Origin: a virus
Virus record (IMG/VR): IMGVR_UViG_3300022750_000191
Coordinates: 1 to 39,833 of that record
Length of the DNA: 39,833 nucleotides
Reading direction: 5' to 3' (one strand)
The notes under the pieces are model-generated. The model saw only the letters and a list, made by a program, of their open reading frames with translations, was not told the DNA's origin and made no database searches. This document shows positions 1,929 to 7,904 of the stretch, in pieces. Both the position numbers and the translations under genes were made by a program. The number at the start of each line of letters is the position of its first letter. Positions within the stretch are counted from its first letter, which is position 1.

Positions 1929-4736
1929 TCAGGCCTGGAAAATCCAGCACTTCACAATCGGTTGTTTGGTGATGGTGGCGTTGGAATGCTTGGCCTGGTG
2001 GGCACGCACCGCGCTGTCAGTTGCCTTGTTAGTGTCCAGCAATTTGCGAGAGCGGGAGTCCTTCAACCGATCTCTCAATTCGCTGATGTCGGCGACCTTC
2101 TGGCGGTGCTCGGCCGCGCACTTGACGAAATCATTGAGGTTGATGGCGATAGTGCTGTCCTTCTTGCTGTGGTTGACCACAGGGCCGTCAGCATCCAGGC
2201 CTTCGAGGTATTCGTAGACTTCCCAAAACTCAGCCACAACCGGGTGATCCGAACTGATCGAGGATTGGCGTTCGATCGCCATGCGGATGATTTGAGTCCG
2301 GGTGTGGCTGATTTGCGGATCGCCGAGAGGGACGATCAGGCGCAGGCAATCAAGCAGGGCGAGCAGTTGGGCGTGGTTCTTATTGATCCGCTCGACGCGG
2401 ATGTAGCCGCGCAACTTGTTGCCGCAATGGCCACAGTGATCGTGTTCGCTTTTGAATGGCGTTTCGCAGGCAAAGCAGTGGCTGTGAAGGGTGCGCAGCT
2501 TTGCTTCATAGCCGGGTATGCGCTGAGCAAAAAGCTCCATCACTTCCGACTCTTTACGAACGGCCTGCAGTAGGAAGTTGCTGAGCTTCGAGCCTTCGAG
2601 GGAGTTGAGAAGGTCCGCCGCCGCGCGGCTTTCAGCCGTCACGGTTGGCCGCACAAAGTGCAGCTTTACGATCCGGGTCATGATCGCTTCGGACGCTACG
2701 ACCGGTGCGTTTTGGCTGATGGCGATGGTGGCGCGGAACGGTGGCTCGTAGGTCTCGTTGCCTGCGGTTTTGACGCCTTTGGTCGCCAGTGTGCCGCCGC
2801 CGAAGTAGTCCTTCAGCTCGTCCCATTCGAATGTTTTGGCATGGGCCTTATCGTCGCCGCTGCGATCCGATTCCAGCAGCACGACGGGCATGCCGGAGAT
2901 TTGCCCCATCAGGCGACTACGGCCGGCCTTGGTGGATTTGGACGGGTCGAAACCTTCGTATCCCTCACGGCCCAGCAGTTTCCACAGCAGGGTGAGCAGG
3001 GTGGTTTTACCAGCACCGGCCTCGCCGGTGGCCTCAAGGAAAGGGAACGACTGGTAGCGGGCGCGGATCTGCTCGGCGAACAGCGAACCGAACCAGAAGG
3101 TCAGCGCCACGGTGCCCTGGGCACCGAAGCATTGCCAGAGCAAATCCAGCCAGCGGGTGTCGTAATCTTTGTTGTCCTTCTGCAGGGCGATTTTCACGCC
3201 TTTTTGCAGACTCTTGAGTTTCAGCTTGCCCATCTCAAAGAACTCTTCTTCGTTGATGGTAATAAGCTGGCCCTCACGGATAGCGATGTCGTTGAACACG
3301 TAGCAGCCGTACTCGCGGCTGTAGCCAACGTAGTCGATGGTTTGCACGGTTTTGATGCCGAAAAGCTGGTCTTTCATGATCTTGTCCAACTGTTGTCCGC
3401 TACCGGTGAATACGGCTCCGGCACCCATACCGAGAAGTCTTTTTTTAAATTCGCTGGCCGCCGCGACCTGGCCACCGGTGAAGGTGTTTTTCACCGAGCC
3501 GCCGTCGTGGGGAAAGTCGACGCGGAAGAAGTACCAGGACTCGTCGGTGATCTCGTTGCGCTGGAAATAGAGAGCCTTGGGGTAGCAGTTGGCGATCTCG
3601 ACCACGCACCCGGACATGCGCAGCGCCTTGGCGCGACGTGCTTTATCGTTGAGCTGTTGGTCTTCATGGTTGTCGCTGGCGTCCAGTGCTTGCATCGCAC
3701 TGTTGAACTTCGAGATGTCCAACTTCCACCAGTACAGGCGGGAGTCGAAGCCGAAGTGAAATTCCTCGCGCTCGCGCCACTGGTACATGAGCAGAGCCTT
3801 TTCCACGGCGCTTTCTGCGATCAGCAGGGCACCATGGTGCTTGGCGTCTTCCAGTTCCTTGTCGATCCGCTGGGCACGGACTTCGACGTCCTCCATGAAT
3901 CCCCAGCGCTGGTGCAGATCGTTCCAATCAACTTTGCGGGAGTCGGATTGTGGGATCTGCGCAGCCTCGCAGGTGAAACCAAGGTCACGCGCCTGACGGA
4001 CCCAGATGCGGGTGTATTTGTGCGCGCCTGGTTCATTGTCCAGCGCCCAAATCAGCTTCGGCGTTTTGCCGGCGCGGGCGGTGATCAGGGCTTTCAGCGA
4101 TTCTTCTGGATAGGCGTTCGAGGACAGTGCAGCAACGGCGGGAACGCCGTTTTGCACCAGGGCAATGGCGTCGAAGATGCCCTCAACAATCCACAGTTCG
4201 TCGACCTGCAGCAGGTCCACGCATGGCGGTACCCACCAGAAACCCTTGTAGCTTTCGCCGGGTTTGAAACGCGCCTTCTTCTTGCCGAAGCGGTTCGGCT
4301 TGTCGATGAGGCGTTCCCAGTAGCCGCCTTTGTCGAGTGGAAAGCGAATGGTGGCCGAGCCGATGTTCAGATCCCGATCAAAGTAATGCTCTTGGGAATA
4401 CCAGCCTTCAATCTGGCCAACGTCGAAGCCGCGGGCGAAGGTCAAGTAGGCCTTTGCACTGGCAGCAGGTTGATCGTCGGTGGCAGGAGCGCGCTTGCTC
4501 CAGTCGTCGAACAGGTCGCTGTACAGCTCTTTCACCGGCTCCATGTACCGGCATTTCTGTTCGCGGCCGCAGCGGATAAACCACGGCTCGTCGTAGCGGG
4601 AAAACAGGCGTCGTTGGTTGCACTGGGGGCACGTACCCTTGCGCATGTACTGGGTGCCAGCCATGTGCTGCAGACCAAAGTCGGCCTCGAGTCGCTGGAG
4701 CACATCGCTACGCAATTGATGATCCATCGTTTTCAC
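1929..4736 (-). CDS. Toprim-type primase-helicase (replication protein)
   Basis: A 935-residue replication protein. The N-terminus has a zinc-finger pattern (C36, C39, C56, C62). A Toprim domain follows: the WIVEGIFDA motif near residue 185 supplies the catalytic glutamate, and WALDNEPG near 230 supplies the DxD-like acidic site. The C-terminal half carries a P-loop ATPase: GEAGAGKTT (Walker A) near 570 and VVLLESDR (Walker B) about 50 residues later. A second four-cysteine zinc ribbon is at about 755-775 (CFAC...CGHC). This matches prophage primase-helicases of the P4-alpha/Toprim type rather than P2 gpA, a rolling-circle nickase. The GTG start at 4736 has a GGAG site 8 bases upstream and overlaps the previous stop as GTGA; ATG 4727 is the alternative. 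It presumably opens and primes the phage origin. Confidence 0.9.
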   Translation of the reverse strand: MKTMDHQLRSDVLQRLEADFGLQHMAGTQYMRKGTCPQCNQRRLFSRYDEPWFIRCGREQKCRYMEPVKELYSDLFDDWSKRAPATDDQPAASAKAYLTFARGFDVGQIEGWYSQEHYFDRDLNIGSATIRFPLDKGGYWERLIDKPNRFGKKKARFKPGESYKGFWWVPPCVDLLQVDELWIVEGIFDAIALVQNGVPAVAALSSNAYPEESLKALITARAGKTPKLIWALDNEPGAHKYTRIWVRQARDLGFTCEAAQIPQSDSRKVDWNDLHQRWGFMEDVEVRAQRIDKELEDAKHHGALLIAESAVEKALLMYQWREREEFHFGFDSRLYWWKLDISKFNSAMQALDASDNHEDQQLNDKARRAKALRMSGCVVEIANCYPKALYFQRNEITDESWYFFRVDFPHDGGSVKNTFTGGQVAAASEFKKRLLGMGAGAVFTGSGQQLDKIMKDQLFGIKTVQTIDYVGYSREYGCYVFNDIAIREGQLITINEEEFFEMGKLKLKSLQKGVKIALQKDNKDYDTRWLDLLWQCFGAQGTVALTFWFGSLFAEQIRARYQSFPFLEATGEAGAGKTTLLTLLWKLLGREGYEGFDPSKSTKAGRSRLMGQISGMPVVLLESDRSGDDKAHAKTFEWDELKDYFGGGTLATKGVKTAGNETYEPPFRATIAISQNAPVVASEAIMTRIVKLHFVRPTVTAESRAAADLLNSLEGSKLSNFLLQAVRKESEVMELFAQRIPGYEAKLRTLHSHCFACETPFKSEHDHCGHCGNKLRGYIRVERINKNHAQLLALLDCLRLIVPLGDPQISHTRTQIIRMAIERQSSISSDHPVVAEFWEVYEYLEGLDADGPVVNHSKKDSTIAINLNDFVKCAAEHRQKVADISELRDRLKDSRSRKLLDTNKATDSAVRAHQAKHSNATITKQPIVKCWIFQA

Positions 4737-6212: not shown

Positions 6213-6413
6213 CTACTGTGCAACTTCGCCATCTTTGATCCCGAGCAGAACTGCTGCCCGGTGTGCCTCGCCTCGACGACCTTTCTTGCGTCCGTTGAGT
6301 AGATCACTGACCAAATTTTTGTTCAGGCTATGTTCGCGGCTAAATTCCGCGATAGTTTTTCCCTGGCGGTCTAGATCTGCGCGGGCTTGCTCGGGGGTTA
6401 GAAGGACATGCAT
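6213..6413 (-). CDS. Cro-like HTH regulator
   Basis: A 66-residue protein, first gene of the leftward early operon and divergent from the XRE repressor. The central region (GKTIAEFSREHSLNKNLVSD) looks like a helix-turn-helix, followed by a basic GRKKGRRGE stretch and a short C-terminal helix. I place the start at ATG 6413; TTG 6422 is an alternative that would run into the operator repeats. It probably serves as the Cro-like repressor that turns down lysogenic transcription. The genome position is the main support for the functional reading. Confidence 0.75.
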   Translation of the reverse strand: MHVLLTPEQARADLDRQGKTIAEFSREHSLNKNLVSDLLNGRKKGRRGEAHRAAVLLGIKDGEVAQ

Positions 6414-6414
6414 A

Positions 6415-6444
6415 GTGTTCAACCGTGTTTAATCGTGTTCGACA
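6415..6444. promoter_or_regulatory. Operator: three 10-bp direct repeats between Cro-like and repressor genes
   Basis: Three adjacent 10-base units read GTGTTCAACC, GTGTTTAATC and GTGTTCGACA, with a related TGTTCAAGTC further right near 6469. The exact 10-base period puts every unit on one face of the helix. They lie immediately upstream of the Cro-like start codon and about 40 bases before the repressor gene. That is where the repressor or Cro-like protein, or a Cox-type regulator, would control both divergent promoters. Which protein binds is not visible. Confidence 0.6.
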
Positions 6445-6485: not shown

Positions 6486-6842
6486 TTGATCAAAAAAGTG
6501 CTCATTTTATCTGGAGTAGGTGAACGCCTACGTGAAGAAAGGGATCGGCTGGGTTTGAACCAGACCGATTTTGGTATCGCTGCGGGTGTTAGCCGAGGAA
6601 CTCAGAAGGCGTATGAGCTTGAGTCAAGTTCGCCTGACGTACGTTACTTGACGGCTTTGCAGGGTATGGCTGTGGACGTTCACTTCGTCCTCACTGGCAG
6701 TCGGCACTCGATAGATGCCGCCAGCCTCAGTGAAGAGGAGTCAATGGTCCTCGACCAATTTCGCTCTCTTCCCGAGCATGACCGCGCTTCTGTCAAACGC
6801 CTCACGGGCGCACTCGCGGCTACTTCGCAGGTGAAGATGTAA
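6486..6842 (+). CDS. XRE-family prophage repressor (C-type)
   Basis: Lysogeny repressor candidate of 118 residues with an N-terminal helix-turn-helix (about residues 13-45: GERLREERDRLGLNQTDFG, then AAGVSRGTQKAYE), typical of XRE/CI proteins. No LexA-type autoprotease domain is present, so RecA-driven self-cleavage is not expected. The C-terminal segment 85-111 (containing FRSLPEHDRASVKRL) is likely the oligomerisation tail, and it resembles the core of the SOS-controlled microprotein at 7725. The start is uncertain: TTG 6486 and GTG 6498 both lack a clear Shine-Dalgarno site, and a GTG at about 6519 is possible. It is transcribed away from the early operon. Confidence 0.85.
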   Translation: MIKKVLILSGVGERLREERDRLGLNQTDFGIAAGVSRGTQKAYELESSSPDVRYLTALQGMAVDVHFVLTGSRHSIDAASLSEEESMVLDQFRSLPEHDRASVKRLTGALAATSQVKM

Positions 6843-6952: not shown

Positions 6953-7477
6953 ATGACTGAAGCGGAACTATTCACCTACTACGAAAAAATTTACTTTCAC
7001 GAGCACGGCCGGAAAGAGCAAATTTTCTCGCGCCTCAATATCCCTCTGGCTGTGATGGTAGCCATCGTTGGCTTCTATGCAGTGATCATTAGTAGCGACT
7101 ACAAGAGCTTGAGCTTGGATCCCGTAATCTGCTTCTGGGGTTTCTTTTGCTACTCAATAATCGCACTGCTGTTCGGTGCCGGCTTTTTCATCGATGCGTT
7201 GCTTGGAAAAATGGATCAGGGCATTCCAACGCCGAACGCTTTTGAGACGTGGAGACAGGATTTGCTAGCGTACTACCGAGAGGAACCAAATTCGGCTGAT
7301 ATCGTTGCCTCCGAGTTAAAGCGATCTCTTTATAAGGACTTCATGAATTGCGCGTCACTCATGACAGTGAACAATGACCGCAAGGCTTCCAGTCTTTACT
7401 ACTGCAATATCGCAGTAATCGTATCAGCAGGTTTTGCGGCGATTACCTACGCTATTGTCAAACTTCCCAGTCTTTAG
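6953..7477 (+). CDS. Three-TM protein, cargo module copy 1
   Basis: A 174-residue inner-membrane protein. Predicted membrane segments by eye are at about 29-46, 58-80 and 149-169, with a cytosolic loop of about 65 residues between TM2 and TM3. The N-terminus has YYEKIY (9-14). Just before TM3 lies a conserved-looking NCA-x4-VN-x2-R element (132-143). The same architecture and motifs recur in the 285-residue protein at 31702-32559, so the two are probably paralogues. The ATG at 6953 overlaps no other gene. It is followed 8 bases on by a proline-rich microprotein gene with its own GGAG site. The position directly after the repressor suggests expression in the lysogen. A role in defence or superinfection exclusion is inference; no named family is claimed. 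Confidence 0.75.
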   Translation: MTEAELFTYYEKIYFHEHGRKEQIFSRLNIPLAVMVAIVGFYAVIISSDYKSLSLDPVICFWGFFCYSIIALLFGAGFFIDALLGKMDQGIPTPNAFETWRQDLLAYYREEPNSADIVASELKRSLYKDFMNCASLMTVNNDRKASSLYYCNIAVIVSAGFAAITYAIVKLPSL

Positions 7478-7485
7478 GAGTAGTT

Positions 7486-7602
7486 ATGGCGCAAAAACCA
7501 CCACCACCGCCGCCACCGCCGACAAGGAACGTTCGTGGTGATGTCCGCCCGCCGCCTCCACCACCGCCGCCGCGAATGCCCCCAATCGTGCATAAGAAGT
7601 AG
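7486..7602 (+). CDS. Poly-proline microprotein, cargo module copy 1
   Basis: A 38-residue ORF with ATG 7486 and a good GGAG site 5 bases upstream, 8 bases after the membrane-protein stop codon. The product starts MAQK, then has eight consecutive prolines, a short TRNVRGDVR linker, eight more prolines and the tail RMPPIVHKK. It is basic and very probably extended (polyproline II). Such runs normally need EF-P for translation. The partner module at 31574 also has a small basic proline-rich ORF directly after its three-TM gene, which argues that this is a real gene and not a chance GC-rich repeat. It may bind the membrane partner; that is inference. Confidence 0.6.
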   Translation: MAQKPPPPPPPPTRNVRGDVRPPPPPPPPRMPPIVHKK

Positions 7603-7608
7603 ACTTGA

Positions 7609-7627
7609 GCCCGGCCCCGTGCCGGGC
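7609..7627 (+). terminator. Hairpin terminator after cargo module 1
   Basis: A perfect 7-bp stem, GCCCGGC with GCCGGGC, around a CCCGT loop, starts 7 bases after the stop codon of the poly-proline ORF. The following TTATTGATTT is a weak U-tract, so termination may be partial. It separates the repressor/cargo unit from the LexA-type promoter. Confidence 0.65.
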
Positions 7628-7661
7628 TTATTGATTTCTGACGCATTGGACCGTGACGTTG

Positions 7662-7702
7662 TTGGCAAAAATCGCGCTCCCGTGTACTGTATGCGCATAC
7701 AG
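7662..7702 (+). promoter_or_regulatory. Sigma-70 promoter overlapped by a LexA-type SOS box
   Basis: TTGGCA (7662-7667) and TACTGT (7685-7690) are spaced by 17 bases. Overlapping the -10 element is the perfect 16-base palindrome CTGTATGCGCATACAG (7687-7702), which fits the CTG-N10-CAG LexA consensus with the preferred TAT/ATA flanks. LexA bound there would block RNA polymerase until DNA damage. The first downstream gene starts at 7725 with GGAG 7 bases upstream. Confidence 0.8.
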
Positions 7703-7724
7703 TGCTTGCGTATGGAGTTTGCGC

Positions 7725-7904
7725 ATGTTGTCGATACGGAAGGCGGAAAGCAGTCCCGCCCAAGAACAGCCACATTCTCGCCGATACATGTCTCGAAAAG
7801 AGCGTGTGCTGCTGCGATGGTTCCGCCGCTTAGGGAAGGAGGATCGTGCTCATGTCCTGCGTTTTGTGTCGGCGATGGCCATAACGAAGCTGCCACTTAA
7901 GTGA
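7725..7904 (+). CDS. SOS-controlled microprotein resembling the repressor's C-terminal tail (candidate antirepressor)
   Basis: A 59-residue basic protein. ATG 7725 is preferred over upstream in-frame starts because GGAG lies 7 bases before it and because it sits downstream of the LexA-type promoter. Residues 26-52 align without gaps to repressor residues 85-111: F-R-x-L-x-x-x-D-R-A-x-V-x-R is shared, and 12 of 27 positions are identical. It has no helix-turn-helix. P2-like coliphage 186 is SOS-inducible through the LexA-controlled antirepressor Tum, which is known from the family; this gene could be an unrelated functional counterpart that forms mixed oligomers with the repressor. The LexA site and alignment are seen directly, and the antirepressor role is inferred. 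Confidence 0.7.
   Translation: MLSIRKAESSPAQEQPHSRRYMSRKERVLLRWFRRLGKEDRAHVLRFVSAMAITKLPLK

Follow-up and report, generated by a model that had tools for sequence, protein, structure and literature searches.

How can a prophage be induced by DNA damage when its repressor carries no domain for cutting itself? The question is raised by the immunity region of a P2-like phage, in which the gene for a 59-residue microprotein lies downstream of the prophage repressor and behind a LexA box. A sequence-only reading of this locus had proposed that the microprotein mimics the C-terminal tail of its own repressor and acts as an antirepressor. The proposal is examined here against related prophages, family profiles and structure models.

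The immunity locus and its LexA box

The window, meaning the whole stretch of DNA analysed (39,833 nucleotides, 39.8 kb), is assigned to a P2-like phage on the basis of its tail genes D and U; the closest relatives of its primase, 62% identical, come from Dobby-type Pseudomonas phages. Leftward from the middle of the immunity region follow a Cro-like gene, a CII-like gene and the primase. Rightward, up to the convergent tail gene D, follow the repressor, an optional membrane-protein gene, a small proline-rich open reading frame (ORF) and the microprotein (Table 1). An Rfam search of the window gave no match.

Table 1. Positions of the features of the repressor–microprotein locus in the window.
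Feature	Position	Strand	Basis or remark
Cro-like HTH gene (PHROG 925), divergent from repressor	6213..6422	-	PHROG match
Prophage repressor	6486..6842	+	118 aa counted from TTG, but the start may lie further in, near 6510; HTH and two-helix tail
Repressor tail (residues 85-111), resembled by microprotein	6738..6818	+	Alignment and profile comparison
174-aa membrane-like gene (PHROG 36961) between repressor and microprotein, optional insert	6953..7477	+	
Terminator-like hairpin 5' of microprotein promoter, setting it apart from the repressor side	7606..7630	+	
-35 hexamer TTGGCA of microprotein promoter	7662..7667	+	Read from sequence
LexA box TACTGTATGCGCATACAGTG	7685..7704	+	Overlaps -10 TACTGT (7685-7690); perfect palindrome 7687-7702
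Ribosome-binding site GGAG, ATG 7 nt further on	7714..7717	+	Kept in 8 relatives
59-aa microprotein ORF, proposed antirepressor, predicted two-helix hairpin	7725..7904	+	
Repressor-tail-like part of microprotein (residues 26-52)	7800..7880	+	Alignment and profile comparison

The promoter elements named in the sequence-only reading were recovered as described: the 16-base LexA palindrome CTGTATGCGCATACAG is perfect and overlaps the -10 hexamer, 17 bp separate this hexamer from the -35 hexamer, and the ORF translates to the 59 residues given. The perfect motif CTGTAT-N4-ATACAG occurs at a single site in the window, and three sites are found when up to two mismatches are allowed (0.58 expected). 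The promoter has 8 of 12 consensus matches and is missing from a generic promoter scan because the threshold of that scan was 9/12. Two host genomes contain four perfect LexA-type sites each and none of the reversed-pattern control. One of these sites precedes a gene that we take to be imuA-like (no Pfam match), and the remaining readable sites precede yebG and radical-SAM genes (both by Pfam); these neighbours identify the motif, and with it the palindrome before the microprotein, as the LexA box of the host. A LexA box lying over the promoter is also the arrangement that characterizes the LexA-controlled class of phage antirepressors (Tum, AntC, GfoA/GftA).

The microprotein is encoded at 88-100% identity in eight viral contigs, all of which (8/8) keep the LexA box, the -35 hexamer and the ribosome-binding site, and its ORF is under purifying selection (dN/dS ~0.14; 36 pairs, 9 sequences). 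Further open frames lie at 7653-7904 and 7474-7896, on both strands; the frame described here, whose conservation was checked, is the one with a ribosome-binding site. The membrane-like gene is present in four of the nine relatives (the window, L002, L005 and L006) and absent from the other five, and all nine have repressor and microprotein. These two genes are thus a constant pair, and the intervening genes come and go. In the window, the optional insert (6953-7603) consists of two genes, one for the 174-aa membrane-like protein (PHROG 36961) and one for a 38-aa proline-rich ORF.

A two-helix module in repressor and microprotein

The claim that the repressor has no autocleavage domain is borne out: its 118 residues match HTH models only, S24 peptidase being absent, as expected of a non-cleavable repressor in the LexA-controlled antirepressor class. 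The alignment of microprotein residues 26-52 with repressor residues 85-111 (118-aa numbering) likewise stands, ungapped and with 12 of 27 positions identical. Its Smith-Waterman score is 61, against 23 +/- 4 in 5000 shuffles, none of which scored as high. BLASTP of the single microprotein against the single repressor returned no alignment; the single pair is therefore weak for a standard search, and it is the family profiles that make the resemblance unambiguous. Among 12,120 ORFs, a profile built from repressor tails only recovered 112 of 125 microproteins at E<1e-3 and 118 at E<0.01, and matched zero minus-strand ORFs. Profile-profile comparison of tail and microprotein (hhalign) gave a probability of 97.4% and E 1e-11 over 47 columns, and a microprotein profile scanned over the window found the microprotein first and then the repressor tail (2.5e-7). 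These comparisons show the resemblance to be real and general.

Structure models point the same way. Helices are predicted at residues 24-35 and 38-53 of the microprotein, in an AlphaFold model of modest quality (pLDDT 78, pTM 0.46), and, in the repressor model, at residues 75-86 and 89-109, so that tail and microprotein appear in these models as the same two-helix element. Like SinI, discussed below, the microprotein contains the C-terminal module of the repressor and lacks its HTH. A fold search with the microprotein alone gave four insignificant matches and is uninformative for a two-helix hairpin.

Other searches delimit the family. The microprotein profile had no credible match among PDB sequences; tblastn against GenBank phages gave a weak Shewanella match (E 1) for the microprotein and no match for its clade-B counterpart; and no genome matched when peptide patterns taken from just the microprotein were scanned for. 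PHROG 23693 (59 aa) matches residues 7-54 of the 59 (E 9.1e-5), matches the repressor tail weakly (0.033) and matches 22 of 40 microprotein family members, which suggests that it contains part of the family. Function, control and repressor partnership are not recorded for this PHROG.

Mimicry of the tail holds in part. The microprotein does resemble the repressor tail module, but it matches the tail of its own repressor barely better than the tails of other repressors (p 0.05-0.10). This preference is marginal, and "mimic of its own tail" is therefore too literal and was set aside; the microprotein is better described, on the sequence comparisons, as a free copy of a common tail module, one whose divergence has kept pace with that of its partner.

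The same module extends to the host. In host genomes, the microprotein profile matches the C-terminal tail of a conserved Arc-like regulator (E ~1e-5 to 2e-4). This Pseudomonas regulator (L186, L189), whose tail falls in the same two-helix module as the phage tails and microproteins, is presumably AmrZ. In its title, a paper by Xu et al. (2016; cited in PMC5907648) attributes the tetramerisation of AmrZ to the C-terminal domain. Tetramerisation through a matching tail supports, by analogy, the view that the repressor tail serves for oligomerisation.

Linked change of tail and microprotein in related prophages

Primase-anchored scans of genomes and viral contigs yielded 160 loci; this set plus relatives fetched earlier gave 142 loci with a placeable Cro-like gene, which were searched with a family profile grown from five microproteins. 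A tail-only ORF lies downstream of the repressor and on its strand in 125 of the 142, and several of the remainder are truncated contigs. Eight further loci, at first scored as lacking a microprotein, combine a divergent repressor tail, SVSEALA(T/S)F, with a 43-aa class of microprotein that is divergent too and lies at the expected position; an automated tail pattern missed three of these eight (L075, L141 and L142), which end in DSVSEALATF or DSVSEALASF. Overall, the tail-only partner is present in about 130 related viruses. A second microprotein-like ORF further downstream was seen in L156 (region 3721-4005) and L074 (region 2181-2363), as if antirepressors accumulate.

The sequence-only reading had suggested comparing microproteins with repressor tails among related prophages, and the co-variation is clearly positive. 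Between microproteins and tails, pairwise distances correlate at 0.62-0.67; the corresponding values for microproteins are 0.09-0.14 with the HTH of the same repressor, 0.20-0.21 with Cro and 0.16-0.22 with primase. HTH distances carry signal, since they follow those of Cro (0.53-0.65). The tail-microprotein correlation exceeds the tail-HTH correlation (bootstrap P<=0.0005), and does so too at loci where other genes fill 290 bp or more of intervening DNA. In 205 pairs the repressors have nearly the same HTH but unrelated tails, and their microprotein distance is 0.712, against 0.715 for random pairs; a swapped tail thus goes with a swapped microprotein. A microprotein found widely beside unrelated repressor tails would have spoken against partnership, and none was seen: the divergent 43-aa class occurs at 8/8 loci with the divergent tail and at 0/125 of the others. 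Because the tail tracks the microprotein and the HTH tracks Cro, the repressor looks, in these sequences, like two exchangeable halves, an HTH that goes with operator and Cro and a tail that goes with the microprotein.

Control of the microprotein is less uniform than its presence. The LexA control described for the window holds there and in two other clades, but it fails as a general rule, for the majority of relatives have no box. The boxed clades have TTGGC(A/G) or a close variant as the -35 hexamer, and LexA-boxed microproteins of the same kind adjoin repressors of two other tail types. In a tree built from a short alignment, the LexA-box label needs three changes and a single clade is weakly rejected (p-AU 0.036); L057, a LexA-box locus, was scored there as box-less, its chosen start codon falling inside the box. 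SOS induction is therefore not the general trigger of the microprotein, which is rather a general companion of the repressor, placed under SOS control in some lineages. Perfect LexA boxes also precede a phage-borne UmuD-like gene in L034, L057, L064 and L084, and a similar box lies at a distance from the repressor in L063.

Box-less relatives have other conserved elements 5' of the microprotein. In about 29 of them, a conserved bulged hairpin stands directly 5' of the ribosome-binding site (e.g. L113, L067, L025, L078 and L011; alignment A6). Eight of its 13 pairs are changed on both sides, and its covariation score is 0.475, against 0.28 in shuffled and 0.06-0.17 in slid alignments. Rfam had no match at this leader in the related loci, and the idea that the hairpin leader hides the ribosome-binding site more than other leaders do is unsupported (mean pairing 0.57 in this clade; 0.71 and 0.51 in others). 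In several dozen box-less phages (e.g. L037, L061 and L098), a conserved block resembling CCCCGATAACGTCGATTCAGCAATGCAC lies 5' of an MLDR-type microprotein start; it is possibly the site of another regulator.

Proposed mechanism, alternatives and known systems

Observed are the LexA box with its promoter, the conservation, the common module and a linked change of tail and microprotein that is independent of the DNA-binding domain. The reading that best joins them, at a probability of about 0.7, is that SOS induces the 59-aa protein as a SinI-like antirepressor, which would join the repressor in mixed complexes by way of their common oligomerisation hairpin. In the lysogen, LexA would sit on the promoter and keep the microprotein gene off; DNA damage would inactivate LexA, and the microprotein would be made. 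The two-helix module forms the tail of the repressor, and the microprotein, being a free copy of it, would enter the tail-tail contacts of the repressor and form mixed complexes unable to hold the operator cooperatively. The early promoter would thereby be freed, and lytic growth would start without repressor cleavage. That the tail multimerises the repressor, that the microprotein binds the repressor and that binding inactivates it are the steps we infer from sequence.

The same partnership could have the opposite sign: the microprotein may bind the tail and modulate or strengthen repression, as a co-repressor or in a dual role; it might then reset lysogeny after DNA damage. Co-variation with the tail indicates partnership and not its sign, most relatives have no LexA box and may make the microprotein in lysogens, and small phage co-repressors are known, MOR of TP901-1 and Lxc of P1 being co-repressor or dual-role partners (review PMC11323111). 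What makes this unlikely is the control in the window and two other clades, where a LexA-controlled gene, off in lysogens and on under damage, has the wrong logic for maintaining lysogeny; moreover, known LexA-controlled partners of non-cleavable repressors are antirepressors (PMC3121763). Partnership itself would be an illusion if tail and microprotein were mere neighbours that have a common two-helix module and are inherited on one DNA segment, the microprotein having another SOS job. In most loci the two lie side by side, and linkage accounts for part of the correlation; the Arc-like host protein contains the module as well, and similarity to the own tail is scarcely above background. Linkage alone predicts, however, that the tail should track its own HTH better than a microprotein at least 290 bp away, and the reverse was found: at loci where other genes take up 290 bp to 3.4 kb between the two, the tail correlates at 0.55 with the microprotein and at 0.25 with the HTH. 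The gene on the other side, gpD, correlates with the microprotein at just 0.33, and the divergent classes of tail and microprotein match without exception, all of which leaves mere neighbourhood quite improbable. The profile match to the Arc-like tail suggests yet another target, an AmrZ-like host regulator that would be pulled off DNA during SOS to alter host behaviour. A conserved host protein cannot explain why microprotein classes follow the repressor tail of each phage, and the gene sits downstream of the repressor; this last reading is accordingly very improbable.

The preferred reading, a tail-module antirepressor, has precedents for each of its parts. In SinI/SinR of Bacillus subtilis, SinI acts on the C-terminal oligomerisation helices and thereby splits the SinR tetramer, leaving a heterodimer (PMC6123443). 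There, too, a small HTH-less protein is paired with the C-terminal helices of an HTH repressor, a likeness drawn here from sequence and models. SinR is among the matches of the window repressor, mainly in the HTH; the repressor model, too, matches the HTH part of SinR from the SinR/SinI complex. The system differs in that it is neither phage-borne nor LexA-controlled and its tail sequences are another module; none of 40 microprotein members matched the SinI Pfam family.

For control, the nearest precedent is Tum of coliphage 186, also a P2-like phage, where the LexA-controlled tum promoter p95 is laid out like that of the microprotein, with the LexA site overlapping the -10 hexamer in the same way (TACTGTATGTTTATACAGTA). 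Tum is annotated as inhibiting DNA binding by CI, but it is a protein of 146 aa with a DinI-like half, and the C-terminal domain of 186 CI differs from that of the window repressor. The microprotein profile found no match in the 186 region containing tum; the analogy to Tum had been proposed for position and control and not for sequence, and it stands for control. Gifsy phages have LexA-controlled small antirepressors of non-cleavable repressors, and LexA-controlled antirepressors are also found in 186 and N15 (PMC3121763). The Gifsy/Fels-1 proteins GfoA, GftA, GfhA and FsoA resemble the microprotein in being small and under SOS control, and they inactivate the non-cleavable repressors of Gifsy phages (PMC3121763); they differ in that their genes share a transcription unit with dinI, well away from the repressor. 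No description of any of the four as resembling a repressor tail was found, and the microprotein profile had no match in 5 kb of Fels-1. Homology to Tum or to N15 or Fels-1 ORFs was also considered and set aside, with no match to any of them.

In linear plasmid phages, transcription factor-smORF modules encode antirepressors that are likewise small and act each on its own repressor, as does the quorum-sensing antirepressor Qtip; the transcriptional inputs can be exchanged (PMC10432266; PMC11323111). In the modules, the transcription factor is divergent and phage-encoded, control is SOS-independent, the repressors are autoproteolytic, and the smORFs are described as having no homologues or predictable domains (PMC10432266; PMC11323111). 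The present locus lies outside this class: the far-side neighbour of the microprotein is the convergent tail gene D, and its promoter has a LexA box. A LexA-controlled antirepressor and a SinI-type tail decoy are each known already, and their combination is new as far as could be found. The open-licence literature yielded no account of the combination, of its near-universal presence in these phages or of the exchange of two halves, and no description of tail-only repressor partners in P2-like Pseudomonas phages.

The finding thus offers P2-like Pseudomonas phages with short non-cleavable repressors a route to induction, none having been found described before, and the proposed induction partner is present in nearly all of more than 130 loci. 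A broader view, which has about even chances, is that these phages carry a cassette in which the HTH goes with operator and Cro, and the tail-only microprotein is a universal off-switch of the repressor, a plug-in input to lysogeny (LexA, RNA leader or other promoters), each tail class answering only its own microprotein. The many divergent repressor-microprotein pairs, with their natural domain swaps, make this specificity directly testable. Boxed prophages would be predicted to respond to DNA damage, and box-less ones to listen to something else.
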